From assembly GCA_013791905.1 (NCBI GenBank), contig VMSX01000020.1, forward strand, positions 1 to 64,000: 64,000 nt of DNA. The letters run 5' to 3'. Position numbers and translations under genes: made by a program. This stretch comes from Rhodocyclaceae bacterium. GTDB taxonomy: Bacteria > Pseudomonadota > Gammaproteobacteria > Burkholderiales > Rhodocyclaceae. The stretch's first letter is position 1. The number at the start of each line of letters is the position of its first letter. The notes beneath the pieces were generated by a model. That model saw only the letters and a list, made by a program, of their open reading frames with translations, was not told the origin of the DNA and did not search any database. This document shows positions 30,340 through 49,922 of this stretch, piece by piece.

Positions 30340-30340
30340 G

Positions 30341-30592: not shown

Positions 30593-30623
30593 CGCAGGGG
30601 ATCGATACGATCCCCCACTCATT

Positions 30624-34695: not shown

Positions 34696-34708
34696 GAATG
34701 GGTAAGAA

Positions 34709-35506: not shown

Positions 35507-35580
35507 GATGCCTCCAAAGAAAAATGGGGAGGCACCGTCCCCGTCGGGGAGCAATGCGTTCCCCGTGGGATGAAATTTCC
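35507..35580 (-). promoter_or_regulatory. Structured 5' leader 2 (ardC-like gene)
   Basis: A CCCC/GGGG hairpin is followed by TGCCTCC-N14-GGAGGCA, a perfect seven-pair stem that hides the Shine-Dalgarno sequence of the ArdC-like gene. Same family as the leader before the radC-like gene. Confidence 0.65.
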
Positions 35581-35628
35581 GGTCGAAGCCGGATGACTGA
35601 TGGAAAGTCCGATGGACTTCCGGTTCTG

Positions 35629-35892: not shown

Positions 35893-35902
35893 GACCGTTC
35901 TC

Positions 35903-36967: not shown

Positions 36968-37116
36968 TGTCGATGCCTCCATGTAACAACTCCGTGTGGA
37001 AATCTCCGCGCGGCATGGAGCGATCCCGTCCGGGAATGGCTCCCCGGCGGGGTTGATGAATGCTGTTTGTTTTCTCGTGGCCAGCTACCACACGTCCGTC
37101 CAATGCCTTACGGCAT
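36968..37116 (-). promoter_or_regulatory. Structured 5' leader 3 with two upstream hairpins (primase gene)
   Basis: On the transcribed strand: hairpin P1 ATGCC-N4-GGCAT, hairpin P2 GTGG-TAGCTGG-CCAC, then AAACAAACAGCATT, a CCCCG/CGGGG region and GGAGG before the ATG. P1 and P2 recur before four other leaders with different stem bases but kept pairing. Confidence 0.65.
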
Positions 37117-37179
37117 CAGACTGAATCTTATGTTCAGGCTTTGCACAGCAGGCTCGAAATGCGCATCGAACCTGTTCTG

Positions 37180-37213
37180 AAAAACCCCGGCGCACAGAGC
37201 GTGCACGCCGGGT
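37180..37213 (-). terminator. Rho-independent terminator
   Basis: On the minus strand CCCGGCG...CGCCGGGG is followed by TTTTT. It lies 108 bases after the stop of the 191-aa gene and before the leader of the primase gene. Confidence 0.65.
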
Positions 37214-37277
37214 AAGAGGACACAGGAGGGAGGAAACTGGATGCGATGCTACGCACCCGATTTCCCTCTCGGATTTT

Positions 37278-37304
37278 GAAATGCGCCCTTTTCGGACACA
37301 CTTC
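37278..37304. repeat. Dispersed palindrome, copy 4
   Basis: GAAATGCGCCC-ttttc-GGACACACTTC, the most decayed right arm of the six copies. It lies between the end of the 191-aa gene and the terminator, upstream of the primase leader. Confidence 0.7.
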
Positions 37305-37320
37305 ACCAATCCACATCGGC

Positions 37321-37896
37321 TTACATTTCGCCGCGCCCACCAACTTCGATCTTTCGCCACAGGGACTTGGAATCACTCAGCCAGTGATAGCGAACGAATG
37401 CCGACAGGTCGGCGTCATCGTCGATGGAAAGGATGAAGCGCTCGATACCATCTCCGCTGCCGTTGAGAGACAGCCCGGTCCGGTTTTCGCGGAGCTTGGC
37501 CAGGCACTCGGCGTCGTAGCGATCACGCATCTTTTGCGTGTCGATATCGATACAGAGCGAAACCCGGACGCCCCGGTTTCTGGCTTCGTCCAATGAGACG
37601 GCATCCGCCACCACCCGCCGCAGGCGAGCGATGTAGGCCTCCGGCTTCATCCAGCGACCATGCGGCTTGAGCGATCCGCCTTCACAGGCGGCCGCAAACT
37701 CCACGACGTTTTGCATGACCTGCCAGGACATGCCCAGAGCCATGCAGGACCACCGACGCGGACGCTTGCCGTCCTGCCGATAGACATTGTTGTCACCACC
37801 CAGCGAAGCCAGAATGAAATGGTCTTCGTAGGCGGATTCGATACGTTCCTTGGGCAGACGAATTGCCACCCAGTCATACTCGATGCGATACGACAT
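37321..37896 (-). CDS. Hypothetical protein, 191 aa
   Basis: Starts at 37896 behind GGAGG of leader 4 and is not recognised. MSYRIEYDWVAIRL opens a mixed alpha/beta protein, with RWSCMALGMSWQVM, a helical central part (YIARLRRVVADAVSL) and an acidic C-terminus (FILSIDDDADLSAFV). No membrane span or catalytic motif. Its leader places it in the same regulon as the replication and recombination genes. Confidence 0.6.
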   Translation of the reverse strand: MSYRIEYDWVAIRLPKERIESAYEDHFILASLGGDNNVYRQDGKRPRRWSCMALGMSWQVMQNVVEFAAACEGGSLKPHGRWMKPEAYIARLRRVVADAVSLDEARNRGVRVSLCIDIDTQKMRDRYDAECLAKLRENRTGLSLNGSGDGIERFILSIDDDADLSAFVRYHWLSDSKSLWRKIEVGGRGEM

Positions 37897-37975
37897 ATGA
37901 TGCCTCCAGAAATGAATGCCGGAGACACCGATCCCTTCCGGGCGATGTCCCCGGACGGGTGATGGCCGTGAGGCC
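37897..37975 (-). promoter_or_regulatory. Structured 5' leader 4 (191-aa gene)
   Basis: A CCGGGG/CCCGG-type hairpin is followed by TGTCTCC-N13-GGAGGCA, a stem with G-U pairs over the Shine-Dalgarno, then ATG. The TAGCTGG hairpin is absent in this copy. Confidence 0.6.
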
Positions 37976-37983
37976 GAATGGAT

Positions 37984-38343
37984 TTACAGCTGTTCCGCCT
38001 TGGCTTGCGAACACAGGTAAAGCAGGCAGCTCGAATTGCGCGGCCCCCACCAGCGATGCCAGCGGACCTGCACTTTGGCTTTCTGTTCCGCCGGCAAACC
38101 GAAATAGGTATGCCGGGCGATTCGCCACCATTTGGCAGTGAATTGGCGCCGTTCGATCTCAACGACGTCTGCACGCTGCGCACGGCGGGACATGACTTCA
38201 TCCACCGAGGGCTGCAATACCGCAACCTGATCCGCGAACAGCGGCAAGGCCTCGCGTTCTGCCTTCTGCTTGCGCAGAACGGCTGAACGTTTTCTCGGGG
38301 TATCCCGAAAACCTTCATAACGGGGATAGCGATCGAACATCAT
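37984..38343 (-). CDS. Basic hypothetical protein, 119 aa
   Basis: Not recognised. The ATG at 38343 overlaps the stop of the 19-codon frame upstream (ATGA), so translation is probably coupled to it. The protein is very basic (TPRKRSAVLRKQKAE; RRQFTAKWWRIARHTYFG) and may bind nucleic acid. An ATG at 38349 in frame is the alternative. Confidence 0.5.
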   Translation of the reverse strand: MMFDRYPRYEGFRDTPRKRSAVLRKQKAEREALPLFADQVAVLQPSVDEVMSRRAQRADVVEIERRQFTAKWWRIARHTYFGLPAEQKAKVQVRWHRWWGPRNSSCLLYLCSQAKAEQL

Positions 38344-38399
38344 GACCATCCCCTTGCCACGCGAATCGCTTCGCGCAACATTCGTACATACTGCTTCAT
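38340..38399 (-). CDS. Micro-ORF of 19 codons behind a structured leader
   Basis: It begins at 38399 right after the GGAGG of leader 5 and reads MKQYVRMLREAIRVARG-WS, an amphipathic basic helix, then overlaps the next gene by ATGA. It may be a coupling peptide or a small protein. A decayed copy with a one-base shift lies at 39325-39375. Confidence 0.5.
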   Translation of the reverse strand: MKQYVRMLREAIRVARGWS

Positions 38400-38524
38400 G
38401 GTGCCTCCAGAAAAAAATGGAGGCAGCGACCCTGTCGGGGAGCGAGCCCCCACAGGGTTGAGAAATGCTGTTTGTTTGGAGCGGCCAGCTACCGCCTTTC
38501 AGTCTCGCGTGAGATAGATCACGC
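38400..38524 (-). promoter_or_regulatory. Structured 5' leader 5 with two upstream hairpins
   Basis: Transcribed order: P1 GCGTGA-N6-TCACGC, P2 GCGG-TAGCTGG-CCGC, AAACAAACAGCATT, an ACCCTGT/ACAGGGT hairpin, then TGCCTCCA-N8-TGGAGGCA over the Shine-Dalgarno. It precedes the 19-codon frame. Confidence 0.7.
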
Positions 38525-38559
38525 TTGTCAGATAAACTGTACCTACGAGGAAATATCCT

Positions 38560-38892
38560 CTACTGAACGGACAACTGAACGTGCTTGCCCGCTCTTGCCA
38601 ACATATCCACCAAAGCATCAATGGTGAACTTGATGGACTTCTTGTTGATGACATCCGAAACGCGTGGCCTGCTGACACCCAGAATCTCGGCGGCTTCGGC
38701 CTGTTTCAACTTCTTCTCGTCAATCCATTCGGCCAACTCTGTCATCAGGGACTCCTTGATGGCCAGCTTTTCCGAGATGATCCGCTTTGACTCGGCTTGC
38801 AGTGCCGCCGCCTCTTCAGGGCCGAATCCCAGGTCAGCAAATACGTTGCCACCGGCCGGGGTGATATGAGCGGATTTGGTTTCGATACTCAT
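38560..38892 (-). CDS. HigA-like XRE antitoxin
   Basis: 110 aa. ITPAGGNVFADLGFGPEEAA is typical of the short HigA2-type antitoxins, and KLKQAEAAEILGVSRPRVSD is the HTH. It overlaps the toxin gene by ATGA, toxin first, the higBA order. The pair is flanked by direct copies of the leader/micro-ORF segment. Confidence 0.85.
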   Translation of the reverse strand: MSIETKSAHITPAGGNVFADLGFGPEEAAALQAESKRIISEKLAIKESLMTELAEWIDEKKLKQAEAAEILGVSRPRVSDVINKKSIKFTIDALVDMLARAGKHVQLSVQ

Positions 38893-39236
38893 TTTTTGCT
38901 CCTTTCCAGGATGACGGCTTTGTAGCGAGCAGCCGCGACATCCTTGTCATGTTTGCTGGTGGTGTTCGTTTTCTTCTTGAAGCAGTGAAGCACATAGACC
39001 GCTTCAGAAAATTTGGCCACGTACATCACCCGGAACCAGCCATCGTCGAGATTGATGATGATTTCCTTCGTTCCAGCACCAACATCGTCGAATGGCTTCC
39101 AGCGGTCCGGTTCCAATCCGACTTGAACCTGAGCAAGCTGACGCCCCGCCTCTCTACGGGCATTCGGGGTGAAGATGTCATCATCCTTAATGTCGCGCAG
39201 CGAAGACCCACGCCAGTCAATAGGCTTTTCCTTCAT
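38889..39236 (-). CDS. HigB/Gp49-like RelE-superfamily toxin
   Basis: 115 aa. PFDDVGAGTKEIIINLDDGW and FRVMYVAKFSEAVYVLHCF with KKKTNTTSKHD is the Gp49-like/HigB pattern. Such toxins cut mRNA on the ribosome. It is the first gene of the pair; an AT-rich region at 39237-39290 should hold the promoter (TTGTATCAAATTTTATACA-like dyad). Confidence 0.85.
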   Translation of the reverse strand: MKEKPIDWRGSSLRDIKDDDIFTPNARREAGRQLAQVQVGLEPDRWKPFDDVGAGTKEIIINLDDGWFRVMYVAKFSEAVYVLHCFKKKTNTTSKHDKDVAAARYKAVILERSKK

Positions 39237-39338
39237 GAACCCTCCACAAGAATTGTATCAAATTTTATACATCACACGTATGGGGAGGATCTACTGTCAG
39301 AACCAGCCTTTCCAGTTGTGATGACCCCACTGCGCATG

Positions 39339-39495
39339 AATCGCTTCGCGCAGTATTCGTTCGTTATTGCTTCATGGTGCCTCCAGAAAAAAAGGGAGGC
39401 AGCGACCCTGTCGGGAGCGAGCCCCCAAAGGGTTGAGAAATGCTGTTTGTTTCCAGCGGCCAGCTACCGCTTTTCAGTCGTTCCCATATGGGAAC
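39339..39495 (-). repeat. Second, orphan copy of leader 5 and micro-ORF start
   Basis: 39339-39480 matches 38363-38505 along about 142 bp: the start of the micro-ORF (ATGAAGCA, then one extra base that shifts the frame), GGAGGCACC stem, ACCCT/AGGGT region, linker and P2 AGCGG-TAGCTGG-CCGCT. P1 here is the perfect 16-bp palindrome GTTCCCATATGGGAAC at 39480-39495. It has no intact gene behind it. The rest of 39496-39592 holds only a GC-rich hairpin (CCGGT/ACCGG). Confidence 0.7.
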
Positions 39496-39592
39496 GGCCA
39501 AACTCGGGTTTTCCACAGCGGGCTGACGACCAACCCGTTCTGGGAAGCCCGGTACACGCAACCGTGCGTGCACCGGAAAATGGCTCCAACCC

Positions 39593-40399
39593 TTAACTCC
39601 CCTGCCTCTTGCGCTTACGACGGCGCGCAGGCTTGGGATAGCCGAATCGGGACCATGCTGCTGGATCGACGGGAAGCGGTGTCGTCCGGGCATTTTTGAG
39701 ATTCACGAAAACACCGTGATAGGCGATCTGGCCGTAGCGGAACAACTCCCACAGCAAATTCAGGGCATACAGCGAGACGCCGCGATTGACGAACAGCGAC
39801 TGTTTGTCGAGGGCATCGGCCAGCGAGCAGGACGGTATGTCATCTTCGGCTTCCTGCGACTCATCGACGATCTCCGGGAGAAGATCGCCAGCATGAGGCA
39901 GCCGGTTCACATCGGGCTTGGCCCAACGCGCCGGCACGACACCGAGAATGACCTGACCATCATGCAGGCGGTTGCCCAGATCGAGCCAATACCCGCCGCC
40001 AGCACGTCCCACCGATTCCAGGATTGCTTTGCGCGCCAGACGATTGTCCACACAACCAATCGCCAGATCGGTGCGCAAACTCTCGCCCGCAGTGAGACGC
40101 CGCATCTGCGCCTTCCAGCCGGTGCCCATCGCCATGTTGATGCGATTGACGAGTACCGATGCCTTGGAGAGCCCGACGTCGGACGGATAGAACATCTGCC
40201 GCCCGACATTGGCTTCCGACACCTGGTCGGCATCCACAACGGTCACATCCAGTCCCCCGGGGTGACCCAATGCAAGCATGGCCGTATGCAGCTGGGCCAG
40301 TCCCATCAGCATCTGGGAACCTGAACCTCCGGCCCCGATGACGGTGACGCGTACCTCCCGCGTGAGTAGTTCAGGCACAAGATGATGGATAGTCATCAT
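39593..40399 (-). CDS. PRTRC system ThiF-family (E1-like) protein
   Basis: 268 aa. Nucleotide loop VTVIGAGGSGSQML (GxGGxGS), then DVTVVDADQVSEANVGRQ and DVGLSKASVLVNRIN, the adenylation site of E1/ThiF enzymes. PSCSLADALDKQ offers a cysteine at the place where E1 enzymes carry the thioester residue. It overlaps the JAB gene by 29 bases. Expected chemistry: adenylation of the C-terminus of a ubiquitin-like protein. Function in the PRTRC system is not established. Confidence 0.88.
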   Translation of the reverse strand: MMTIHHLVPELLTREVRVTVIGAGGSGSQMLMGLAQLHTAMLALGHPGGLDVTVVDADQVSEANVGRQMFYPSDVGLSKASVLVNRINMAMGTGWKAQMRRLTAGESLRTDLAIGCVDNRLARKAILESVGRAGGGYWLDLGNRLHDGQVILGVVPARWAKPDVNRLPHAGDLLPEIVDESQEAEDDIPSCSLADALDKQSLFVNRGVSLYALNLLWELFRYGQIAYHGVFVNLKNARTTPLPVDPAAWSRFGYPKPARRRKRKRQGS

Positions 40400-41027
40400 T
40401 CCCTCCTGCCTTACCGTTCAAACCGGTTGCGTCGAATGCCAGCGGCAGGAACAGCCCGTTGGCGCATAAGCGGAACGCCGTCGAGCACTGCCCACGATTG
40501 CAGTTGCCGATCACGCCGGCAATCTTGAACTCCCCGCGATCATCCCGATCATCCTGCGTCGAGAAGAAGGCCGAGAGACAACCATGGGAATGCAGGTCGA
40601 CCACCAGATGCTCATCCTCATCGAGGAGCGGCCGGCGATAACGTACATGCGTGCATCCCGTCGATTCTTCCGTCGGGAACACCAGCCGCATCTCGCCGGA
40701 GCCGGCATGCCACACGATCCATCCCACACACTCTTCCGGGCAACGATCGAGCGCGAACCGGTAGAACTCGATGACCAGATGACGAGGAATCTCGCCAAAG
40801 GTCAGGGAGAGCTCACGTCCCACCCAGCCATAGGGCATGGGGACGCTTTTCTGGCAGACCAGCGGCACCCTGAGGTACAACCAGGGACGCCGTGCTTCGA
40901 GCCAGAGTCCGTCACCGGTCACCAGAAAGCGATGACCATTCTCGACCAGGGGCGTGAATCCGCCATAGCGCGGCACCGTCACGACAGGTGCCGAGTGTTG
41001 CAAGGCGACATCTCTCGCATCCATCAC
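40371..41027 (-). CDS. PRTRC system protein A (JAB/JAMM domain)
   Basis: 218 aa. VVDLHSHGCLSAFFSTQDDRD gives the JAMM zinc site (H-x-H, then D), in part written DLHSHG...DD. JAB proteins remove ubiquitin-like proteins or process their precursors. It lies between the E1-like and E2-like genes and overlaps both, so all are made together. Confidence 0.87.
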   Translation of the reverse strand: MMDARDVALQHSAPVVTVPRYGGFTPLVENGHRFLVTGDGLWLEARRPWLYLRVPLVCQKSVPMPYGWVGRELSLTFGEIPRHLVIEFYRFALDRCPEECVGWIVWHAGSGEMRLVFPTEESTGCTHVRYRRPLLDEDEHLVVDLHSHGCLSAFFSTQDDRDDRGEFKIAGVIGNCNRGQCSTAFRLCANGLFLPLAFDATGLNGKAGGNDDYPSSCA

Positions 41028-41761
41028 GCGTCTCCTTCCAGCACGGCGGCCTCAAACGCTTGCCGTAGCGTCCAACCCGTCGGAACGAGCGTACGCATGG
41101 GAAAGCGACTCAGGCGACCATCCAGCAGATCCCGCCACAAGGCAAACGGACCGGCCCGGTAACGGGTCAGCCCCCTTGGGGTATGGATATTCGGATGCGT
41201 GAAGTAGGACCGGAAGAAGGCTTCCTCCCAGGCCAGGTGGTTGTGTACCTGATCGTCTTTCGGCAAGCGGGCACTGCCAACACAGATCGTGCCGTTTTGC
41301 CAGACATTGAAGAATGGCGCGACGGACAGCGGTGTGTCGGCATCGGGACGTTGCCGCCCCTTGAACGCAAACACCTTCCATGCCTTCGTGGTCACTACAA
41401 ACACCAGTCCCGGACAGGGAACCCGAGCGGTTCGCGCACCGAGTTCCTTGCAGTCGAACCAGACCTGCCTGTCCTGTGGAGCGCTGTACCAGACGAAGAA
41501 ACCCGATCCTTCCGCGAGCACATGCGCCGGCTTGATGGCCGGCTTGAGCATCGTTTCCGGATCGAGAATCCGCATCAGCGCCATGAGTCCCGCCTTGCTG
41601 GCCGGAACCCCTGCTTGAATCACCGGACGATTGCCATCGTCGGAACCCACGTCATGAATCGACACGAACGCCGGCTTGCGCTGCGCATCCTGATAGATCA
41701 GGACGGCATGAGTCAGCCGGTACGACTGTTCGCTGGAAAACGTACTGACATTGATCGCCAT
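41024..41761 (-). CDS. PRTRC system protein B (E2-like fold)
   Basis: 245 aa from the ATG at 41761 with AAGGAGG upstream; the longer frame to 41842 has no better site and reaches the previous gene. FFNVWQNGTICVGSARLP (near residues 150-168) parallels the HPN-x4-G-x-IC-L active-site segment of ubiquitin-conjugating enzymes, with Cys160 as the candidate acceptor. PRTRC B proteins fall in a prokaryotic E2-like family. It overlaps protein A by ATGA. Confidence 0.85.
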   Translation of the reverse strand: MAINVSTFSSEQSYRLTHAVLIYQDAQRKPAFVSIHDVGSDDGNRPVIQAGVPASKAGLMALMRILDPETMLKPAIKPAHVLAEGSGFFVWYSAPQDRQVWFDCKELGARTARVPCPGLVFVVTTKAWKVFAFKGRQRPDADTPLSVAPFFNVWQNGTICVGSARLPKDDQVHNHLAWEEAFFRSYFTHPNIHTPRGLTRYRAGPFALWRDLLDGRLSRFPMRTLVPTGWTLRQAFEAAVLEGDA

Positions 41762-41838
41762 CGCGACCTCCTTAATGAAATGGTGCAGGCGTGTCGAGCC
41801 CGGCGGGCAGGGCATCACCCGCACCGGGTTAATGGAAC

Positions 41839-42915
41839 TCACAGCGGTTCGGCGATCAGGGCGATCAGCCGATCCAGTGACGACAACAACTGCAACCCCA
41901 GGCCAGTCTTGTGGAGCCAGACATGGAACCCCTCGGTATCGAGAGGTACCGCACCGGCGCCAAAGAGATCGGTATAGCCATCGCTGGCGCAGTTCGCGTA
42001 TTCGATAAAGTCATCGAACACCCGATCCACGGGGTCATCGGCATCCCATCGCAGGTAAGCCCCGAAATAGACGCACTCGACTTCCATGCCATCCAGGCCG
42101 GGAAGCTGCCCGCCATCCGCCATCACTTGTTCGATGTCGAGCAACACGGCGGCCACTGGCGCAATTTCTGGCATGGAGGACTGGATGCGGGATAAGGCAT
42201 CCTCATCCAGCACCGGCTTGGCGCGAAGCACCCAGTCCGGGAAATGACCGTCATACCAGTCCGGAGAAATTGCATCCCCCAGATCCTCGTCGGTCATTCC
42301 CATCGAACGCATCTCATCCAGCCATTCGACTTGATCACTACTCCCTTGCCAGTGGATGAATTCGCACAGATCGCGCGCCGATTGGGGCGTCAGGGCATAC
42401 AGCGTGCGCCCCGAAGCCCGTTGCAGCCAATACAGCGCTGTCTCACCCAAACCGGGACAGTGCTTCTCGATCCGGGTCAGCCGATCCTTCATGCCCAACC
42501 ATTCGACCTGCTCGGACTGGATGGCCCAATACCACTGGTCATCGTCCTCACTGGCATCGGGAAACAGCGATCCGTAGCCCAATGCCGCAGGCGATGCCGC
42601 GACATGAGTCTCGAATCCGATGTGCTGCAACTGCCCGACCATGCGGTTGATCCACGTAGCCAACGCTTGTTGCACCATCGCAGGCGGCAGACCGCTCGCA
42701 GACTCGGGAAGCTCCCCAACCTCCAACCAGCGCAAGGCCAGCATCGCCCAGCGACGAACATCAAGGCTGGGATTGAGGCTGATCGTGAGTCCTTTGCCAA
42801 ACTGCGGCAGACTCAGAGGATCAGGGCCTGGACGGAAGCGGCCACCTGACAACGATCGCCGGGGGCCACGGTTGCTTGAGACCGGAGCACCAAGCGTTGC
42901 AAGGCTTGTACGCAT
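41839..42915 (-). CDS. PRTRC system protein F
   Basis: 358 aa. Recognised by position and by segments such as LDVRRWAMLALRWLEVGELP and RASGRTLYALTPQSARDLCE; it has no known catalytic motif. It starts at 42915 with GGAG eight bases upstream, inside the last 34 codons of the 70-aa gene, so either the overlap is real or the true start is internal. Function unknown. Confidence 0.78.
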   Translation of the reverse strand: MRTSLATLGAPVSSNRGPRRSLSGGRFRPGPDPLSLPQFGKGLTISLNPSLDVRRWAMLALRWLEVGELPESASGLPPAMVQQALATWINRMVGQLQHIGFETHVAASPAALGYGSLFPDASEDDDQWYWAIQSEQVEWLGMKDRLTRIEKHCPGLGETALYWLQRASGRTLYALTPQSARDLCEFIHWQGSSDQVEWLDEMRSMGMTDEDLGDAISPDWYDGHFPDWVLRAKPVLDEDALSRIQSSMPEIAPVAAVLLDIEQVMADGGQLPGLDGMEVECVYFGAYLRWDADDPVDRVFDDFIEYANCASDGYTDLFGAGAVPLDTEGFHVWLHKTGLGLQLLSSLDRLIALIAEPL

Positions 42916-43025
42916 CGTTTCATCTCCTCGTGATCGAAGGCAGGAACCCCGGGAGGGATTCCGCCTTCAAAGTGCGAGAAGTCGCCATCGGCAGCGGCTT
43001 GAAGCCGTTCCTTGAGCGACACCAT
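42813..43025 (-). CDS. Small protein overlapping protein F
   Basis: 70 aa, starting at 43025 with GTAAGGAG upstream, 3 bases after protein C. It reads MVSLKERLQAAADGDFSHFE and then a helix (HEEMKRCVQALQRLVLRS). Its 3' part overlaps the start of protein F in another frame by 103 bases. Good ribosome site and operon spacing support it; not recognised. Confidence 0.5.
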   Translation of the reverse strand: MVSLKERLQAAADGDFSHFEGGIPPGVPAFDHEEMKRCVQALQRLVLRSQATVAPGDRCQVAASVQALIL

Positions 43026-43028
43026 GGC

Positions 43029-43415: not shown

Positions 43416-43425
43416 GACGCCCTCC

Positions 43426-43836
43426 TCATGCGAAAAGGTTGTCTTCGACCGGAACGTCGGCGGCTGCCGGTGTCTCGGTCTCATCATCATCGTCATCAGC
43501 TGGTGCCGTTACCTTGGCCGTGCCTTTCCTGAGTGCGCCTTCCGCTTTCTTGCTGGCGTCCTTTTTGGCTGCCTCAAGAATGTTGCGGGTGGCTTCCAGT
43601 TGCTCGGCCAGCGATTGATGCTCGTCGGCAAAGCTGCGAAGCAATCCGACGAATTGCGCATCCAGCTCCTCCGCCGTTCCGGTCAGGACCAGCGGGATCG
43701 CCAACGCCTCGGCATCCTTGGCATCCTTCGGGGTGGGTCGCACCGTGACGGTGATCAGTCCTTCCCTGGCCGATGACAAAGTGACCGCCAGTGCTGCGCA
43801 GCCGTCCAACAACGATTTCAGTTCCTGAAAAAACAT
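43426..43836 (-). CDS. PRTRC system protein E
   Basis: 136 aa from the ATG at 43836 behind leader 7. MFFQELKSLLDGCAALAVTL and ITVTVRPTPKDAKD-like sequence are those of PRTRC E. The C-terminus is a Lys/Ala helix followed by an acidic low-complexity tail (APADDDDDETETPAA). Function unknown. Confidence 0.82.
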   Translation of the reverse strand: MFFQELKSLLDGCAALAVTLSSAREGLITVTVRPTPKDAKDAEALAIPLVLTGTAEELDAQFVGLLRSFADEHQSLAEQLEATRNILEAAKKDASKKAEGALRKGTAKVTAPADDDDDETETPAAADVPVEDNLFA

Positions 43837-43912
43837 GGTGGTACCTCCAAAGAGAAAATTGCAGGCGCACCACGCCCCGTGCGGGGAACGTGGTCCCCGC
43901 ATGGGTGGAAAA
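43837..43912 (-). promoter_or_regulatory. Structured 5' leader 7 (protein E gene)
   Basis: CCCATGCGGGGACCACGTTCCCC-type hairpin (GCGGGGACC with CCCCGCACGGGGC arms), then GTGCGCCT opposing TGGAGGTAC over the Shine-Dalgarno and ATG. Pairing near the ribosome site is weaker than in the other copies. Confidence 0.55.
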
Positions 43913-43919
43913 AACTGTC

Positions 43920-45599
43920 TTACGCGATGGTGAAGCGCATCGACCGCGGCACCTTGCCCTCGTAGGGGAATGGCGCCACGTTCAACAGCGCCTTGACGAT
44001 GTCGTCCTTCTTGCCGCTCATGGCCTTGGCAAATGCCCCGCCCATGGCGACCTTCAAACCAATCTCATCGCACATCGCCTCGATTTCGCTCTTGGTGAGC
44101 AGCTTGAGAAACTCTTCGCAGAGCTTCCAGTGCCGCCCGAGATCGATGTCGAGATAAGTGAGGATCTGGACCAGGGTCTTCTCCTCGATGCCGTCCGCTG
44201 CCGATGCCGCCAGCCCTAGAAACAGCTTTTCCCGAACGGCTTCATCCGACTGCGCCACCAGGCGTGCCGCCTCATCCGCCTTGAACACAAAGCTGGTGAA
44301 GTCCTGCTTGGTGATCGCGGCGAATGCCTTGCCCAGCTTGGTATCGCTGATATGGCGAGCATTTCCCGATAACGCCAGGGCGATGAGCACCGTGAGATTG
44401 TTGTCACGATTGCCCATCAACTCCCGACGCAGCGCCTTGCGCCAGACTTCCAGCCGATAGTCCTTGACCCGTTGCGAGTCCTGGACCTTGGCATCCGACT
44501 TGGCTTCTGTCTTGCCGGGTGACTTGGCAGTAACGGGGGACTTGCTGGACGCTGCCTTGGCAGTACCTTCCGTCGGCGTTGCCTTGTCCTTTTCTAGCTT
44601 GATGCGTGCTGCCACCTTCTTGGCATTGCAGCTCGCATCGAAGCACAGGTCGGGATAGACATTGCCCAGCTTGCCTGGCACAGCCGAGATCGCGGCACCG
44701 AAGTTCTTGCAGGCGCGGCAGGCTTTTGCCTGTTCGTCGCCTACCCCGGTATCGCCCTCCGCCAGCAGTCGCAGGAGCGTGAAGTTCTCGCCGGGTCGGA
44801 CGATCCGAATGGTCGGATAGTCGTCGGCCAGCGATGCCTTCTTTGCGTCCAACGCCGACTCGGTCTTGCCATCAAAACACGCCCCGTGGGTGCAATGTCC
44901 GGCGGCAATCGCCTCGCCAAAGAGCGCCTGCTGATTCCCCGAGTTATGGGAACACGACGTGCACTCGCCCTTGTCGAAGATGGCGCTGCTCAACGCCCGT
45001 GAGATCTGCTCAAGTTGCCCGCGAAACTGGGCGACCGTCGGCAGACTGGCCTGTGACAGCAACTTCTCCAACACGGCATCCTGCTTGTCGCGGGTGACCG
45101 CAGCCAACAACTCTGCGTGACCCAGCTGGATGCGCCGCTCGGACAAGGCCCGACGGACCCGTTCCGAACAGTTCATCAGCGCCAGGCGCTTGTCGAGCGT
45201 GGTCCGCGACCAGCCCAGACGACGCGAGGCCTCGTCCCGATCCCCCTGACAGCGGCCAAGAATCTTGGCTGCCGCTTCGGCTTCTTCGGTCGGACTCATG
45301 TCGGCCCGCTGGATGTTCTCGATCAGCGCCGCTTCGTCGGCTTCGCCATCGTCCAGGTCGCGCACCAGTGCCGGGATTTCATACTCGTCCCCGAACACCT
45401 TTTTTGCCGCACGCCAGCGACGCTCGCCGGCGACGATCTCGTAACGCCCCGCATCGCGGGGACGAACGAGGATCGCCTGCAGCACGCCCTTGGATTTCAC
45501 GGAATCTTCCAACGCCGTCATTTCCGAGGGATCGAAGTAGCCTCGGGGATTGCGGCCGGGAAGGATGTTCCCGACCTTGATTAATGCTTGCAGTTGCAT
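43920..45599 (-). CDS. PRTRC system ParB-family protein
   Basis: 559 aa. The N-terminal ParB/Spo0J nuclease-like domain contains NPRGYFDPSEM, YEIVAGERRWRAAKK and LIENIQRADMSPTEEA (the ENxxR-like arginine box), followed by an HTH (EASRRLGWSRTTLDKRL). The middle has two cysteine groups (ECTSC...HCTHGAC and CRACKNF...LCFDASC) that may bind zinc. The C-terminal 150 residues are helical. It is the ParB of the PRTRC set; CTP-dependent clamp activity is a family property that would need testing here. Confidence 0.9.
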   Translation of the reverse strand: MQLQALIKVGNILPGRNPRGYFDPSEMTALEDSVKSKGVLQAILVRPRDAGRYEIVAGERRWRAAKKVFGDEYEIPALVRDLDDGEADEAALIENIQRADMSPTEEAEAAAKILGRCQGDRDEASRRLGWSRTTLDKRLALMNCSERVRRALSERRIQLGHAELLAAVTRDKQDAVLEKLLSQASLPTVAQFRGQLEQISRALSSAIFDKGECTSCSHNSGNQQALFGEAIAAGHCTHGACFDGKTESALDAKKASLADDYPTIRIVRPGENFTLLRLLAEGDTGVGDEQAKACRACKNFGAAISAVPGKLGNVYPDLCFDASCNAKKVAARIKLEKDKATPTEGTAKAASSKSPVTAKSPGKTEAKSDAKVQDSQRVKDYRLEVWRKALRRELMGNRDNNLTVLIALALSGNARHISDTKLGKAFAAITKQDFTSFVFKADEAARLVAQSDEAVREKLFLGLAASAADGIEEKTLVQILTYLDIDLGRHWKLCEEFLKLLTKSEIEAMCDEIGLKVAMGGAFAKAMSGKKDDIVKALLNVAPFPYEGKVPRSMRFTIA

Positions 45600-45668
45600 G
45601 ATGCCTCCAATGAAAAATGGCAGGCAGCCGCATCCCCGGACGGGAATGCGACTGTCCCGCCGGGTGAA
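45600..45668 (-). promoter_or_regulatory. Structured 5' leader 8 (parB gene)
   Basis: CCCGGCGGGACAGTC...GGACGGG-like hairpin, then TGCCTGCC-N11-GGAGGCA over the Shine-Dalgarno, then ATG. Confidence 0.6.
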
Positions 45669-45676
45669 ATGAATCG

Positions 45677-46018
45677 TCAGTGTGTGTGTCGCCGCCGGTA
45701 ACGTTCCAGCACCCGATCCCGAATTTCTTCGTCATCGAGGCCAAACAGACGGCAACACGCCCGGTAGGTAAAAGCACCGGACTCCAAACGTGGCGCCCGC
45801 ATCCAATCAAGAATGTCTGCCCGTGTTTTGGCGGACACCCTCAGATCGAACAGGTCGTGCAGCGATTTCTCCAGAAGGAGACCATGCAGCCGCAGGATGT
45901 CATCCTCGGTCCATGGGATCTCGTCATCGGAGTTCGCTTCACGTCCTGCCATGCGAGCCGGATCGGGTCGATGGTCCTGACCGCTTTCCTTGTGCATGGC
46001 CATCTCCGTCATCAGCAT
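45677..46018 (-). CDS. Hypothetical protein, 113 aa
   Basis: Not recognised. EIPWTEDDILRLHGLLLEKS and a C-terminal FTYRACCRLFGLDDEEIRDR look helical and may include an HTH-like part. Possible starts are 46018 and 45997; the latter has GGAG at a good distance. It lies between recT-linked genes and parB. Confidence 0.5.
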   Translation of the reverse strand: MLMTEMAMHKESGQDHRPDPARMAGREANSDDEIPWTEDDILRLHGLLLEKSLHDLFDLRVSAKTRADILDWMRAPRLESGAFTYRACCRLFGLDDEEIRDRVLERYRRRHTH

Positions 46019-46032
46019 GTGAATTGCCTGCG

Positions 46033-46245
46033 CTAGTGACGGTCGCCGGCCTTGATCAGGCGGTAGCTGTCGTACTCCAACTGATAGCCGTTGCCCTGAA
46101 TCACGCTCAGAAGTTCGTTGCGCGCCAGTACCACAGCGGCATCGTCTTCCTTGTTCAGGGTCAGGAAACCGACCTTGTCGAGCACTTGCACCGCCCGCGC
46201 ACAGATCCGGATGGCTCCGAACTCCGTGTCACCGAGCATGGTCAT
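46033..46245 (-). CDS. Hypothetical protein, 70 aa
   Basis: Starts at 46245 with GGGAGG upstream and overlaps the recT stop by ATGA. IRICARAVQVLDKVGFLTLN and ARNELLSVIQGNGYQLEYDS look alpha/beta; not recognised. Coupled to recT, so it may assist recombination. Confidence 0.55.
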   Translation of the reverse strand: MTMLGDTEFGAIRICARAVQVLDKVGFLTLNKEDDAAVVLARNELLSVIQGNGYQLEYDSYRLIKAGDRH

Positions 46246-47339
46246 TTGCCATCCTCCCCGAAAATGTCATTCGCCGAGGAAGACGGATTGGCCAGTGCAG
46301 ACTTACGGCTACGATAGGCGCGCAGCACCTGTTCCAGCTCGGTGCCCTCGAACGAACCTTCGGCCCGGACATAGACTTCATCCAGTTCGTCGGTCGTGGC
46401 CGCCCTGCCGATGATGGCCAAGGTGTCCTGCAGGAGCTTTCCGGAGGCTTGAGGCTCGGCGCCTTTGGGCGACTCCGCCTTTTCAGACTTGCTTCCCTTG
46501 TCACCGGACTCGGTCGTGGGTTGAATGATCTCCCCCGTTTCCTCGTCGATGATTGGCGCCCAGGAGCCATCGATGGCTTCGGTGATTCCGATGTTCTGGT
46601 TTTCGCCACGCTCGGTCACTTCATCGAGCGCCAGCGCCATCGCAAGTTCAGGTGACTTCGGCAACAGGTTGCACAGCCGGCGAATCACGGTCTTCAGGCC
46701 CATCGGGACGAAATGCGTATCCCACGGACTTTCCTTGCCGTACTTCTTGGCCATCTGATAGCCCCGCGAGTTGTCGCGCACCTGTTCGATCTGTTCCTTC
46801 GACAGGGCGTGAAACGTGCGGGTACCATCCTTGAAAACCGCGACAGCGTAGAACCCCACGATCATTCCCCGATCCTCATCTGAGGCTGGGAATCCGTTCT
46901 TCTTCAACGGTTCGTGCATCAGGGTCCGGTTAAGGCCCAGAACGATGTCGAACTTGTCGTTGATGCGAACTTCGTGACCATAGATGTCCTGCACGATGCC
47001 ACTGTTGCGCGCCAGTTTCATGAGCCCCTGATAGCCGGGAATCAACTGGCACTGATTGCCGAACGGCACCAGGTGCGCTTCACCCATCAATCCGACTTCG
47101 AGACCTAGTTGGCTGGACTGAATCACCGCCGCAAAAACACTGCGGGGGTCTGTCTGGGCCAGTTTCGGGTTCATGCGAAACGCGGTCAGGGCAATGCGCA
47201 CCATGCGATCCGGACTCAGGTGCTTGGGCAGTGCGCGGGCTATTTCGCCTTTGAACTGTTCCAACATGGCCGGGAACGGCACCACGTTGGACTGCACACC
47301 TTGGCGGGACTTCTGGATGTTGCGTAGGGTTTGAGACAT
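46242..47339 (-). CDS. recT: RecT-family single-strand annealing protein
   Basis: 365 aa from the ATG at 47339 (MSQTLRNIQKS). DRMVRIALTAFRMNPKLAQT and LMGEAHLVPFGNQCQLIPGY are hallmark RecT segments, as is KKYGKESPWDTHFVPMGLKT. The C-terminal 110 residues are acidic and less conserved. It anneals complementary single strands after 5' resection by a RecE-type exonuclease, whose gene lies upstream at 47435-48268. Confidence 0.93.
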   Translation of the reverse strand: MSQTLRNIQKSRQGVQSNVVPFPAMLEQFKGEIARALPKHLSPDRMVRIALTAFRMNPKLAQTDPRSVFAAVIQSSQLGLEVGLMGEAHLVPFGNQCQLIPGYQGLMKLARNSGIVQDIYGHEVRINDKFDIVLGLNRTLMHEPLKKNGFPASDEDRGMIVGFYAVAVFKDGTRTFHALSKEQIEQVRDNSRGYQMAKKYGKESPWDTHFVPMGLKTVIRRLCNLLPKSPELAMALALDEVTERGENQNIGITEAIDGSWAPIIDEETGEIIQPTTESGDKGSKSEKAESPKGAEPQASGKLLQDTLAIIGRAATTDELDEVYVRAEGSFEGTELEQVLRAYRSRKSALANPSSSANDIFGEDGK

Positions 47340-47412
47340 GGTTTTCTCCAAAGAAAAATGGCGAAGACACCTGTCTCCCTGGACGGGGATGGGTATCCCC
47401 GCCGGGGTTGAT
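47340..47412 (-). promoter_or_regulatory. Structured 5' leader 9 (recT gene)
   Basis: CCCCGGCGGGGATACC...GTCCAGGG-like hairpin, then TGTCTTC opposing GGAGA over the Shine-Dalgarno. This copy has the shorter GGAGAAAAC sequence instead of GGAGGCATC. Confidence 0.55.
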
Positions 47413-47434
47413 GACCTACAAAAGTTGCCGCGGT

Positions 47435-48268
47435 TTAGGCGGCGTCCAGCTCGAAGGCTTCTGTGTTGGCAGCCCAGCGTGGCAGGGAGATCAGTTCAAT
47501 CTCGCCACCCGGTTGGTACGCCGGCCAGTTGCCCGATGCCTGGCACCACTTCAAGAGCTGAAGTGCCGCCCGGTACTTCTTGCGCCCAATCTCGATCACA
47601 TCGGGATCGGCGCGATAAACAGCTACCGCGTGCGGCGCGTCCTTCTCCACAGCGACAAACAGGAACGGAAGTTCCATTCCAGTCACGGCCTTGATCCCGT
47701 CGACGTAGTACGCCGCCTGGATGTCGTAGCCGAAGTTCGCAATGGATTTGGAGAAGCCGCTACTGCTGGCATCGACGCAGGTCTTGAGATCAACGATGGC
47801 TTCACCGTTGAACCAGTCCGGCCGACACTTGCAGTTGAGGCCCGTGTCCGCATCCGTCCAGAACGCCGAGAGCTCGGCGTCACCAACGGACAGAAGTCGT
47901 GCCGCCCCTTGATGGGCAAACACGGCACGCTGCACCAGGGTGAGCGTGGCCATCTCCTCGGAAGTAATCACGATCTTGCCCTGATTGGCTTCCTCGAAGC
48001 GTGCTGCGGCTTCCTTGCCTTCCTTCGTGCGACGGTCGAACTTCTCGGCCACCACGAATTCCTCGGCAAAGCGATCCTGCTCCAGTACATAGGTATGCAC
48101 TGCGGTACCGAATGCCATGGCGGGCGTCGGTTGATGCGGATGATCCAGATACTCGCGCAGGTGGGCCGGGCTTTTGAGCATCTTGACGATACCCGAATGG
48201 CCGATGGCTTTCTCCGCGTGATACTGCGTGGCCGGCATGACGAGCAGGCCGGGATGATTGAGTTTCAT
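47435..48268 (-). CDS. RecE-like PD-(D/E)XK exonuclease (DUF3799)
   Basis: 277 aa. MAFGTAVHTYVLEQDRF, AFWTDADTGLNCKCRPDWF and AIVDLKTCVDAS give the PD-(D/E)XK nuclease core (D...D-x-K). It matches the C-terminal nuclease of RecE/exonuclease VIII. With RecT and SSB it makes a Red-like recombination module, useful for element circularisation, repair or gene capture. Confidence 0.85.
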   Translation of the reverse strand: MKLNHPGLLVMPATQYHAEKAIGHSGIVKMLKSPAHLREYLDHPHQPTPAMAFGTAVHTYVLEQDRFAEEFVVAEKFDRRTKEGKEAAARFEEANQGKIVITSEEMATLTLVQRAVFAHQGAARLLSVGDAELSAFWTDADTGLNCKCRPDWFNGEAIVDLKTCVDASSSGFSKSIANFGYDIQAAYYVDGIKAVTGMELPFLFVAVEKDAPHAVAVYRADPDVIEIGRKKYRAALQLLKWCQASGNWPAYQPGGEIELISLPRWAANTEAFELDAA

Positions 48269-48393
48269 GATGCCTCCAGAGTGAATGCCGGAAGCACCGA
48301 CCCGAACCGGGGCGTTGTCCCCGGCTGGGTTGGAAAATGCTGTTTGTTTCGCGCGGCCAGCTACCGCTTTTCAACCGAACGGATAACCGTCCG
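48269..48393 (-). promoter_or_regulatory. Structured 5' leader 10 with two upstream hairpins (recE-like gene)
   Basis: Transcribed order: P1 CGGACGG-N4-CCGTTCG, P2 GCGG-TAGCTGG-CCGC, AAACAAACAGCATT, CCCAGCCGGGG/CCCCGG hairpin, then TGCTTCC-N13-GGAGGCA over the Shine-Dalgarno. Confidence 0.68.
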
Positions 48394-48467
48394 ATCAAAT
48401 CTGGCTTTCCGCAGGACGCTCGGGGCGAACGCCCTCGGGAAAGCCCCGGAAGCCCGGGGCAATGGGA

Positions 48468-48629
48468 TCATTCGATGGTTCCGGCTTTGCGCGCCATGTC
48501 GAGTGCTTTCAGCAACATGTCACGGGTTTCCATGTCCCGCTTTCCTTCCCTCAGCCGTTGATAGAGATCACAGGCAAAGACCATGGGCAGCGGGTCGAAC
48601 AGTCGAACGAGATAGGGATTGAGTTTCAT
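48468..48629 (-). CDS. Small hypothetical protein, 53 aa
   Basis: Starts at 48629 with CTGGAG seven bases upstream. MKLNPYLVRLFDPLPMVF then a helix (YQRLREGKRDMETRDMLLKA). No family recognised. Preceded by a leader-like segment, which supports a real gene of the same regulon. Confidence 0.5.
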   Translation of the reverse strand: MKLNPYLVRLFDPLPMVFACDLYQRLREGKRDMETRDMLLKALDMARKAGTIE

Positions 48630-48715
48630 GATTTTCTCCAGAGGTTGTTGAGATTCCCTGGCGAAAACCGCATCCAAGATGGAGCGATCCCCGCAGGACA
48701 AAGGGCTCTTCGAGA
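48630..48715 (-). promoter_or_regulatory. Leader-like segment 11
   Basis: Shows the GC-rich part (CTGCGGGGATCGCTCC) and CTGGAGAAAATC before the ATG, but the pairing over the ribosome site is short (CTC with GAG). A degenerate member of the leader family. Confidence 0.4.
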
Positions 48716-48762
48716 AAAGCGCTTTGTGCTGCGGGGAAGACCCCCACAGGCAATACTGCGAA

Positions 48763-48840
48763 CTACAGACCGAGCGCGTGAACGATCGGACGGCTGATGA
48801 TCCAGCCAGAAATGCAGCATGCGAGAAGAACGAGTTCCAT
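48763..48840 (-). CDS. 25-aa single-span membrane peptide
   Basis: Begins at 48840 after AGGAGGCATCTC and ends at a TAG. The sequence MELVLLACCISGWIISRP is hydrophobic enough for one membrane span. Supported only by its leader and ribosome site; function unknown. Confidence 0.4.
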   Translation of the reverse strand: MELVLLACCISGWIISRPIVHALGL

Positions 48841-48907
48841 GAGATGCCTCCTGAAGTAAAAAAGGGGGCACCCCTCCACTAGCGGAGGCGATGCCCCCGC
48901 TGGGGTT
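48841..48907 (-). promoter_or_regulatory. Structured 5' leader 12 (25-aa peptide)
   Basis: CCCCAGCGGGGGC...CCGCTAGTGGAGGGG hairpin region, then TGCCCCC-N13-GGAGGCA over the Shine-Dalgarno, then ATG. Confidence 0.6.
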
Positions 48908-48913
48908 GAAACT

Positions 48914-49186
48914 TCAGGCAATGACTTCGAAGGAAGCCTTTGCCGTGTTGCCGGAATCGTTGCCGATTCCGTTCCGACGCAGATACGCCGGTACGTCGTA
49001 CTGCCGCCAATCCGTTACCGGTTCCTCGGCGGGTACTTCATCTACTTCAGCCTCCACCTCCTCGACCTTGGCCTGGAGGGGAACACGCAGGAATGAACCA
49101 CGAATGGCTTCCAGCGCAAACTGAAGAAACGAAAGGATCAGATGCAGTCCTGCCAGCATGGCCAGGACGAGAATGACGCGCTCCAT
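48914..49186 (-). CDS. Small membrane-anchored protein, 90 aa
   Basis: From the ATG at 49186 behind leader 13. An N-terminal span (VILVLAMLAGLHLILSFLQF) is followed by an acidic region (VEEVEAEVDEVPAEEP) and a C-terminus with YDVPAYLRRNGIGND. Not recognised; probably anchored in the inner membrane with the tail in the cytoplasm. Confidence 0.6.
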   Translation of the reverse strand: MERVILVLAMLAGLHLILSFLQFALEAIRGSFLRVPLQAKVEEVEAEVDEVPAEEPVTDWRQYDVPAYLRRNGIGNDSGNTAKASFEVIA

Positions 49187-49252
49187 GAACAAACCTCCAA
49201 AAGTGATGGAGGCCTGTCCCCCAGGGGAGGAAGACCTCCCGGTTGGGAAACA
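49187..49252 (-). promoter_or_regulatory. Structured 5' leader 13 (90-aa membrane protein)
   Basis: GGGAGGTC...CCCCAGGGG-type GC-rich part, then CCTCCA-N8-TGGAGG, a stem that closes the Shine-Dalgarno, then ATG. No TAGCTGG hairpin. Confidence 0.55.
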
Positions 49253-49265
49253 AGAAACGTGCGAC

Positions 49266-49718
49266 TCAGAACGGCTCGATGTCGGGAACATCCTCGAATG
49301 CCGGTCCCGAAGCGGCTGCAGGCTTGCCTTTACCGTTGCCGGCACGCTTGCCTTTGCCTGCTTCGGGCGCATCGTCATCCGCTGGACGAGTGCCGAGCAT
49401 CTTCATCTCGCTGGCGAGAATCTCGACGACATAGCGATCCTGACCCTCTTTGTCCTGCCACTTGCGGGTCTGGATGCGACCTTCGACGTAGACGGGCGAG
49501 CCCTTCTTCAGGTACTCGCCGACGACCTCCGCCGTGCGACCAAAAAAGACGACACGGTGCCATTCGGTGATTTCCTTCTTTTCACCGGACGACTTGTCCT
49601 TGTACGTCTCCGTCGTTGCGATCCGAATCGTTGCGATCGCTTCGCGGTTCTGCGTGTAACGAACCTCAGGGTCGGCACCCAAGTTGCCGATGAGGGTGAC
49701 TCTGTTTAGTGATGCCAT
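49266..49718 (-). CDS. ssb: Single-stranded DNA-binding protein
   Basis: 150 aa. The OB fold starts [20 protein letters not shown], with [20 protein letters not shown] and [20 protein letters not shown]; the end is the acidic tip VPDIEPF, used to recruit partners. It is first in the recombination operon behind leader 14 and would work with RecT, the RecE-like nuclease and the primase. Confidence 0.95.
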
Positions 49719-49851
49719 GACTACCTCCTGACAAAAGTTGAAATTGGCAGGAAGGCCGTCATTACCTGACGGGGTATCCCCGCCGGGGTTAGTGAATGCT
49801 GTTTATTTCGGAAGGCCAGCTACCTTCACCTTGTCCGCCATAAGGAGGACA
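49719..49851 (-). promoter_or_regulatory. Structured 5' leader 14 with two upstream hairpins (ssb)
   Basis: Transcribed order: P1 TGTCC-N10-GGACA, P2 GAAGG-TAGCTGG-CCTTC, AAATAAACAGCATT, CCCCGGCGGGG hairpin region, then CTTCCTG opposing CAGGAGG over the Shine-Dalgarno. P2 differs from the other copies at both arms while its loop is unchanged. Confidence 0.68.
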
Positions 49852-49895: not shown

Positions 49896-49922
49896 GAAAT
49901 GCGCCCTTTTTGGGCGCATTTC
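49896..49922. repeat. Dispersed palindrome, copy 5 (perfect)
   Basis: GAAATGCGCCC-ttttt-GGGCGCATTTC, 11-bp arms without mismatch, followed by AAAATCCG. It lies between the divergent ssb operon and the AcaB-family gene. Confidence 0.85.

Follow-up and report, generated by a model that had tools for sequence, protein, structure and literature searches.

Known systems and the present locus

Excerpts of published accounts describe several systems that can be set beside the leader RNA considered in this report. This RNA, a module made up of a hairpin (P1), a second stem (P2) and an A-rich linker, occurs in five copies within a stretch of 64,000 nucleotides (nt) from a Rhodocyclaceae bacterium (assembly GCA_013791905.1, contig VMSX01000020.1, positions 1 to 64,000 of the forward strand; referred to here as the window), as part of what seems to be an integrated conjugative element adjoining an IMP dehydrogenase gene. 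The put RNA of phage HK022 has a length of ~70 nt, two stem-loops and an RNA triplex, and putL lies just downstream of the PL promoter (PMC9378689). The conAn element of pLS20 and the canT element of Tn916 are RNA elements that let RNA polymerase pass terminators in the operons of conjugative elements (PMC8955417, PMC11658703). Frpo is a long hairpin of the T-strand that rebuilds -35 and -10 boxes (PMC9849209, PMC11541004), and an AcaCD-dependent promoter, Pvcrx087, lies ahead of bet/exo (PMC4542580, PMC4207636).

The evidence presented below gives good support to the view that the module is a structured, cis-acting RNA, ~70 nt long, which is read in the direction of the genes and consists of P1 and P2. 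It is like the HK022 put RNA, which works without a dedicated protein, in having two stem-loops in ~70 nt near a predicted transcript start, and unlike it in its predicted pseudoknot, its many copies per element and the occurrence in gene arrays of copies that are preceded by a further hairpin, P0. The conAn and canT elements differ from the module in being Gram-positive, and conAn also needs a protein. With Frpo and ssi the module shares the repetition of hairpin elements before leading-region operons that include ssb, but in the module it is the sense strand that folds, and the P0 copies seldom show -35 and -10 boxes. There is also a likeness to the AcaCD- and SetCD-dependent promoters of IncC plasmids and SXT, in that the window element encodes an FlhC-family protein and the first IncC copy of the module, by an assignment made in the current analysis, appears to fit the published Pvcrx087 promoter; the excerpts of the accounts of these promoters (PMC4542580, PMC4207636) contain no mention of a downstream RNA module.

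Matches to Rfam 15 at the gathering score were absent from the window, and in three plasmid stretches they were limited to a cobalamin riboswitch, an ALIL pseudoknot and a tRNA, none of them at the module. Lax Rfam searches yielded two sub-threshold matches each for the window and the plasmid stretches, none at any counted module. In the portion of the open-licence literature that was covered, no description of the module was found, and it appears to represent a strongly covarying RNA family that has not been described before.

Covariation and coding-strand folding of P1 and P2

Each copy is designated by the start of the GG in GGTAGCTGG, which in the window is at 49824, 48365, 39468, 38493 and 37089, always on the minus strand. 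A first-pass annotation of the window had proposed that five leaders carry P1, P2 and an A-rich linker, and all five copies were recovered on this strand. On re-reading, the P2 stems are as described there (GAAGG/CCTTC once, GCGG/CCGC three times and GTGG/CCAC once), and so are the five P1 stems, each different and each paired. The linker is AAACAAACAGCATT in four of the five copies and AAATAAACAGCATT in the 49824 copy.

For copies from other sources we used a covariance model, R1, built from 42 copies (alignment A1, representing 42 of 46 prepared copies), and a larger alignment, A2, of 107 R1 matches with an expectation value (E) of 1e-4 or less, which contains 85 distinct rows. This cut-off dropped a group of short copies with a P2 of two pairs (L010:903, L031:7611, L045:1731, L043:1718, L046:2742, L071:1461 and L083:41834; loci are cited by L-number) and a truncated match in L026, none of which enters the counts made on A2 or on the 72-copy set described below. 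Loci L039, L068, L069, L079, L084 and L085 were not sources for A2; L039, L068 and L085 had strong R1 matches, and L068 and L039 duplicate other records. A separate set of 72 distinct copies was obtained by reducing 120 copies according to upstream similarity. An earlier set of 50 copies includes L073, a spacer of the kind found among clustered regularly interspaced short palindromic repeats (CRISPR), and L076, probably a chance match, neither of which is in A2 or the 72-copy set. The shuffles used in tests of P1 stems, P0, promoters, dyads and Shine-Dalgarno sites keep base composition only.

The first-pass annotation had taken it as the mark of RNA structure that both arms change while they still pair, and the copies from other genomes bear this out: in A2 all five pairs of P2 are changed on both sides, in a total of 100 cells, with 92.9% of the P2 cells paired. 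The stems seen include GCGG, GTGG, GAAGG, TTCGG, GCGA, GTCG, GAGA, GCGC and GTCC, with their complements. When the proposed pairing between loop and linker (S2, discussed below; 100% of its cells paired) is counted in, the covariation of P2 amounts to 0.365, as compared to 0.125 +/- 0.011 for shuffled alignments (none of 500 as high) and no more than 0.088 for slid partners; covariation in a larger alignment, which had been named as a check, is thus found by shuffles and slid partners used instead of R-scape. Two other measures do not separate P2 from the shuffles, since the five pairs changed on both sides were reached by 102 of 500 and the 15 further pair types by 396 of 500, and A2 was fitted to a model that contains P2, although its register is fixed by the constant loop.

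P1 was scored free of any register in the 72 distinct copies. The stem score averages 13.8, whereas the mean for shuffles is 6.45 and their highest value in 300 rounds is 7.9; scores of at least 12 occur in 48 copies, where 7.7 would be expected (maximum 18). All seven P1 pairs are changed on both sides, with only 54.5% of cells paired in a single fixed register, and the covariation of P1 and P2 together is 0.478 (shuffled, 0.229 +/- 0.015; slid, no more than 0.180). The centre of the P1 loop lies 14.5-20 nt before the GG in 59 of the 67 copies that have a stem, within a search range of 12-23 nt, and in some copies the loop is of the C(TTCG)G form.

A hairpin of RNA transcribed in the direction of the gene tolerates G·T but not A·C mismatches, and a hairpin of the opposite strand does the reverse. 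In a count that gave neither type an advantage, mismatches of the G·T type outnumber those of the A·C type in P1 (71:33, p = 0.008 against the shuffled share), in P0 (31:12, p = 0.004, for 17 copies above the 99% level) and in P2 (18:2), with p-values that are only indicative because the copies are related. Folding of the sense strand, as RNA, is therefore favoured for all three.

A candidate pseudoknot

Small H-type pseudoknots of the luteovirus type combine an S1 of five pairs, a short S2 and an A-rich third loop, and bring about frameshifting inside coding sequence. The module would share this plan, but lies in the leader rather than in coding sequence. It is quite likely that P2 belongs to a small pseudoknot of the H type, in which S1 would be the P2 stem of 4-5 pairs, S2 would join GCUG of the loop with CAGC of the linker, and the third loop would be the A-rich AAACAAA. 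The loop TAGCTGG is identical in all A2 rows and CAGC is found in all but two, where the variants CAGT (L050:4118) and TAGC (L027:5017) can still pair with the loop as G·U. R1 also recovered copies with altered inner stem pairs and one with an altered loop.

The loop lengths fit the S1 and S2 of an H-type pseudoknot. Between the end of the loop and CAGC there are 13-15 nt in 69 of the 72 distinct copies, all of them with P2 stems of at least four pairs; of the remainder, two copies have 18 nt, in a lengthened linker that is able to fold into a small hairpin, and one, with three pairs, has 14 nt. In four copies with a stem of two pairs (L010, L043:1741, L046:2764 and the IncC copy L068:12018) the spacer is only 7-8 nt, which is what one would predict if CAGC has to fold back across the stem. 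L073, with two pairs and 14 nt, is an exception to this relationship, but it is a CRISPR-like spacer. At L038:2979-3052 and L054:287-360 a small hairpin can arise within the A-rich third loop; AAGCAGC follows it, so that CAGC is kept.

Several observations weigh against the proposed S2. In A2 it has no changes on both sides and two one-sided changes to G·U; one of its pairs is broken in L236:19554, where the loop is TAACTGG; and in the predicted fold of the 39468 copy CAGC pairs with another GCUG, located in the 3' arm of a stem. By our own arithmetic, a complementarity of four nt between GCUG and CAGC would arise by chance in ~17% of cases. The constancy of loop and tail is itself partly a product of selection by the searches, because the first patterns required both and R1 came from the copies so obtained. 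The first-pass annotation had read the common loop as a sign of one ligand, protein or antisense partner. Since the likeliest partner is the linker CAGC, in cis, a partner in trans is not the first thing that a constant loop has to imply; the near-invariance of the GCUG/CAGC pairing still suggests a contact in trans as well, though the searches favour copies that keep loop and tail.

Sequences upstream of P1

With respect to what lies 5' of P1, two classes of copies can be distinguished, those with a promoter, either sigma-70-like or of the AcaCD type with a dyad, and those with the covarying hairpin P0; a number of copies have no clear promoter, dyad or P0. The -10 box of the sigma-70-like promoters lies ~47 nt before the GG in L006, L014, L017, L029 and others, and some 15-20 nt before it in copies that have no P1 (L010, L043 and L046), such that the predicted start, ~7 nt past the -10 box, is located ~5 nt ahead of the first helix with or without P1. 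The transcript of the promoter copies would therefore begin a few nt before the first helix.

The dyad GCCCAAAANGGGC, starting at -86 to -91 and with at least 10 of 12 matches, is present in 8 of the 72 copies (shuffled mean 0.03, maximum 1 in 200 rounds), and another two copies carry it near -134. Within the window it occurs upstream of the first copy as GCCCAAAAAGGGC (49903..49915, minus strand), one of two exact GCCCAAAANGGGC matches in the genome. The dyad is a putative activator site of the AcaCD type. An inverted repeat, GAAATGCGCCC-AAAAA-GGGCGCATTTC, at 49897-49922 upstream of the ssb leader contains this dyad, and a decayed relative (family D20) lies at 37278-37305.

P0 comprises some 17 or more pairs, broken by small internal mismatches, and its arms vary while remaining paired (GCTTTCC/GGAAAGC, CTCTCCAGA/TCTGGAGAG, ACTTTCTCA/TGAGAAAGT, GGTTT/AAACC). 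It is often preceded, as judged by eye, by a GC-rich hairpin, T. The P0 score is at or above the 99% shuffle level in 17 of the 72 copies, where 0.7 would be expected. Promoter scores above the 95% shuffle level are found in 1 of the 37 copies with a P0 score of at least 30 and in 12 of the 35 others (Mann-Whitney p = 0.00013), for a P0 threshold that was picked after the scores had been seen and that leaves two dyad copies, 49824 of the window and L023:7151, on the P0 side. Independent sigma-70 promoters in the P0 copies were rejected on these counts. The mean fold z of -4.4 for P0 comes from 19 copies chosen by a GGAAA-type motif and by the start of lowest energy, and is thus biased towards structure. 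In one IncC copy (L083, 34900 region) the upper portion of P0 is formed by a palindrome, ACTTTCACATGTGAAAGT, and close relatives of it lie downstream of the module in copies from Vibrio and Aliagarivorans (L043, L046); it may be an operator.

Distribution and arrays

The core pattern of the module was found in 59 stretches among 257 gigabases of genome contigs, against ~1.4 expected by our own arithmetic, and in two stretches of viral contigs, one of which (L084) reaches only 22.8 bits with R1. A loose pattern gave at least 120 stretches in viral contigs, which were taken as chance. Contig C22 of the source genome carries further copies, one by the exact pattern and five by R1. Among 369 genomes of the window's class, 13 have an R1 match at E of 0.05 or less, and all but the source genome remain at or below 25.3 bits; in five of these twelve weakly matching genomes that were inspected, the stretch displayed has no TAGCTGG loop. 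The module is therefore rare in this sample, and its distribution follows mobile elements. Some contigs with the module are labelled Planctomycetales, Anaerolineaceae or actinobacterium, but these are metagenome bins in which the taxon is possibly misassigned. A relaxed scan for another loop with a matching tail gave one unconvincing match among the loci scanned.

The module recurs across conjugative elements of Beta- and Gammaproteobacteria, including the IncC plasmids. Among 72,556 plasmid records, 806 are matched by a query of 301 nt taken from around one IncC copy; in 677 the match covers at least 80% of the query, and 798 of the 806 are typed as conjugative. In complete E. coli genomes the same query has matches in 97 of 5,426 (79 with coverage of 80% or more), and 174 of the 176 places matched are on plasmids. 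R1 detects eight copies in the searched stretch of the IncC plasmid pUMNK88 (the one at 41834, which is without a clear P1, only at E 0.036), six copies each in pKAM339_1 and pSTJ2 at E of 1e-4 or less (a seventh pSTJ2 match at 28538, E 0.0039, is left out of the counts) and two in a Comamonas plasmid. The IncHI2 and F regions searched gave no convincing R1 match (best in F, 14.2 bits, E 0.14). A match to the module core that comes from a Shewanella genome (L073, 1501-1525) lies between the repeats of a CRISPR-like array of 12 repeats with a period of 61 nt. A CRISPR-like spacer thus seems to carry module sequence, which would be a sign that elements with the module RNA are CRISPR targets.

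Each of pUMNK88, pKAM339_1 and pSTJ2 has its first copy at a divergent boundary, together with a promoter or activator site, namely the dyad at 11 of 12 matches in pUMNK88 and pKAM339_1 and TTGACA/TAGAAT in pSTJ2. Of the later copies, 7 of 7 in pUMNK88, 5 of 5 in pKAM339_1 and 4 of 5 in pSTJ2 come after a gene on the same strand; the fifth in pSTJ2 comes after a gene for tRNA-Asp. This tRNA gene (L239, 12298-12371) is located inside the array, with the promoter copy on one side and the next copy on the other. From this arrangement, the module would sit at the 5' ends of transcripts and at gene junctions. All five later copies in pSTJ2 have a P0 score of at least 30, as do only some of those in the two IncC-type plasmids, where the others have weaker P0-like hairpins by eye. 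Terminator-like sites number 44 in the pSTJ2 array, against 18.7 +/- 4.8 expected, with both strands taken together and overlapping sites counted apart. A hairpin with a U-run precedes the start codon in 8 of 12 leaders of the window (34600-49740, minus strand) and 8 of 23 pSTJ2 genes, as compared to 1 of 24 in pKAM339_1, 3 of 31 in pUMNK88 and 4-7% of random positions in the three plasmids.

The window copies and their host element

All of the features listed here for the five window copies are on the minus strand. Upstream of ssb, copy 1 has P1 (TGTCC..GGACA, 49832..49851, present in the minimum-energy fold) and P2 with its linker (GAAGG TAGCTGG CCTTC and AAATAAACAGCATT, 49795..49827), and its proposed pseudoknot would pair GCTG at 49817-49820 with CAGC at 49798-49801. 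Copy 2, upstream of the exonuclease/recT genes, has a GC-rich hairpin T (48443-48460, by eye) that abuts P0 (GCTTTCC..GGAAAGC, 48404..48444), followed by a P1 of 13 pairs with the loop TTAT (48370..48399) and by P2 with its linker (GCGG TAGCTGG CCGC and AAACAAACAGCATT, 48336..48367; CAGC 48339-48342). In copy 3, P0 (39505..39551) scores 41.0 against a 99% shuffle level of 36.0, P1 has the core GTTCCC ATAT GGGAAC (39473..39502), and P2 and linker occupy 39439..39470 (CAGC 39442-39445). Copy 4 has P1 as GCGTGA TCTATC TCACGC (38507..38524) and P2 with linker at 38464..38495 (CAGC 38467-38470). Copy 5, upstream of the primase gene, is preceded by a hairpin resembling an intrinsic terminator (37186..37212, 11 pairs and then GTTTTTC) directly before its P0 (37137..37186), for which the close relative L018 scores 36.5; its P1 has 10 pairs and the loop GTAA (37098..37121), and P2 with linker (GTGG TAGCTGG CCAC) lies at 37059..37091, with CAGC at 37062-37065.

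Single-sequence folds of these copies, each compared to 200 dinucleotide shuffles, gave z values of -1.72 (49824), -2.90 (48365), -3.23 (39468), -1.59 (38493) and -3.54 (37089). Two of these copies, 39468 and 49824, have a minimum-energy fold without P2, and in the latter the loop GCUG is paired with the linker CAGC in place of P2. With G·U pairs allowed, the P1 stems of several copies reach 10-15 pairs. Between 38395 and 39480, a type II toxin-antitoxin pair (HTH and Gp49/RelE-like) lies between two near-identical copies of the leader and gene start, 976 bp apart, and the copy at 39376 meets a stop after three codons.

The integrase of the element is encoded at 57492-58721. Further inward are ssb, exonuclease/RecT and PRTRC genes that include ParB, a ThiF-type gene, a primase with Toprim and DUF7146 domains, an ArdC-type gene and RadC, and then actin-like ParM, RepA and TraD; both genes of the genome for TraI_2 (MOBH relaxase) are on other contigs. 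This gene set resembles that of the IncC plasmids (ssb, bet, exonuclease, DUF7146 protein). The gene for the FlhC-family protein is at 30633..31082 on the minus strand (E 1.1e-7, 32.9 bits against a family cut-off of 27), and its product would be an activator of the AcaC/SetC type. A UvrD-like helicase gene lies beside one for an OLD-family ATPase/TOPRIM protein between the integrase and ssb (50861-55074), a two-gene set that is a possible defence system.

What the module might do

Our preferred reading, to which we assign a probability of roughly 40% by analogy with the HK022 system, is that the module is a put-like RNA acting on RNA polymerase. It would stand at the 5' end of transcripts started at a promoter and at the junctions of long arrays of same-strand genes, where P0 would often take the place of a promoter. 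The nascent module would touch the polymerase and make it resistant to pausing and termination, as the HK022 put RNA does, so that one activated promoter of the AcaCD/FlhDC type might drive the expression of a leading-region-like gene array through internal terminator-like hairpins, with downstream copies renewing the modification of the polymerase. The near-constant pseudoknot would provide the surface of contact, and P1, whose sequence is free to vary, would act as a scaffold. This reading is favoured because of the size of the module, its two helices, its place at the predicted transcript start, the predicted A-rich third loop, the near-constant loop and tail and the terminator-like hairpins in the arrays. 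That this would be the first case of RNA-only, put-like processive antitermination in Gram-negative conjugative elements, with a pseudoknot instead of plain stem-loops as the contact to the polymerase, is a tentative and rather doubtful proposition.

There are also results that count against a put-like action. It leaves P0 unexplained, and 5-8 copies would be more than a processive element accounts for. An excess of terminator-like sites is not clear in the window (19 against 14.5 +/- 4.0), in IncC (24 against 20.9 +/- 4.6 and 15 against 10.8 +/- 2.9) or in pKAM339_1 (25 against 18.8 +/- 4.9). The T hairpins, by eye, often have only three Ts after them, and in one pSTJ2 copy none; of the three in the window, one satisfies the definition of a terminator. 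R1 found no match in positions 25000-33000 of HK022, an 8-kilobase stretch in which the presence of the put site is not confirmed.

The main rival, which we consider somewhat unlikely, is that the module serves in the processing of mRNA and the protection of its 5' ends. P0 would then be a cleavage hairpin of the RNase III type between genes, T would guard the 3' end of the upstream mRNA, and P1 with the pseudoknot would form a 5' end that blocks decay. This would account together for T, P0, P1 and the number of copies. P0 would replace the promoter, so that promoter copies and P0 copies would share one final 5' structure, and one T hairpin that by eye is without a T run would also be in keeping with it. 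Simple protection gives no reason, however, for a near-constant loop and S2 amid varied P1, P0 and P2, unless these reflect selection by the search; processing explains P0 better than the put-like model does and the constant loop worse. A less probable alternative would make the module a site for a trans-acting factor that controls translation downstream; this might be the ribosome, a small ligand, or an RNA-binding protein encoded by the element or by the host. The near-constancy of the loop across Beta- and Gammaproteobacteria speaks for such a factor, as does the location of 5 of 12 Shine-Dalgarno sites of the window in stems of at least eight pairs. However, this masking is not above chance (5 of 12 against a shuffled mean of 2.0 and maximum of 6; for stems of at least six pairs, 10 of 12 against 7.0 and 11), and masked Shine-Dalgarno sites were rejected as a trait of all leaders. 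Moreover, the module is absent from seven of the 12 leaders in question, and no Rfam riboswitch matches at the module.

The gene content of these elements is like that of a leading region (ssb, recT, primase, ArdC-type, RadC), and the IncC genes appear to point towards mobI/oriT, as deduced from a rearranged record. Both would suit a single-stranded-DNA promoter of the Frpo/ssi type, with P0 and other hairpins folding on the incoming T-strand. We regard this as improbable and disfavour it, since the mismatches speak for the sense strand and not the T-strand, and since -35 and -10 hexamers of the sigma-70 type, which a T-strand hairpin of this kind would carry, are found in just one of the 37 P0 copies; the Frpo of plasmid F is also a far longer hairpin, and R1 has no better match in F than the one cited above. 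Some copies contain GCGGTAGC, which resembles the core of ops, GGCGGTAGCGTG, and the module could then be an ops-like DNA element for a NusG paralogue of the RfaH type. The P2 stem varies freely (GTCG, GCGA, GCGC, GTCC), which confines the resemblance to part of the copies, and a Pfam search of the genome shows a single gene with a NusG domain and no paralogue. On these two grounds the resemblance to ops/RfaH and JUMPstart was rejected, and we give the idea hardly any credence.

Implications for conjugative elements

The module probably controls the progress of transcription or of mRNA through long runs of genes. It offers a concrete and testable answer to how IncC plasmids and related elements express some 20-30 kilobases of leading-region-like genes from few promoters. 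If the put-like reading is true, RNA-only antitermination would be repeated at the junctions of leading-region-like arrays on hundreds of IncC resistance plasmids. If the module acts on RNA polymerase, RNA-based antitermination would extend from a phage and the elements of Gram-positive bacteria to a major class of resistance plasmids.

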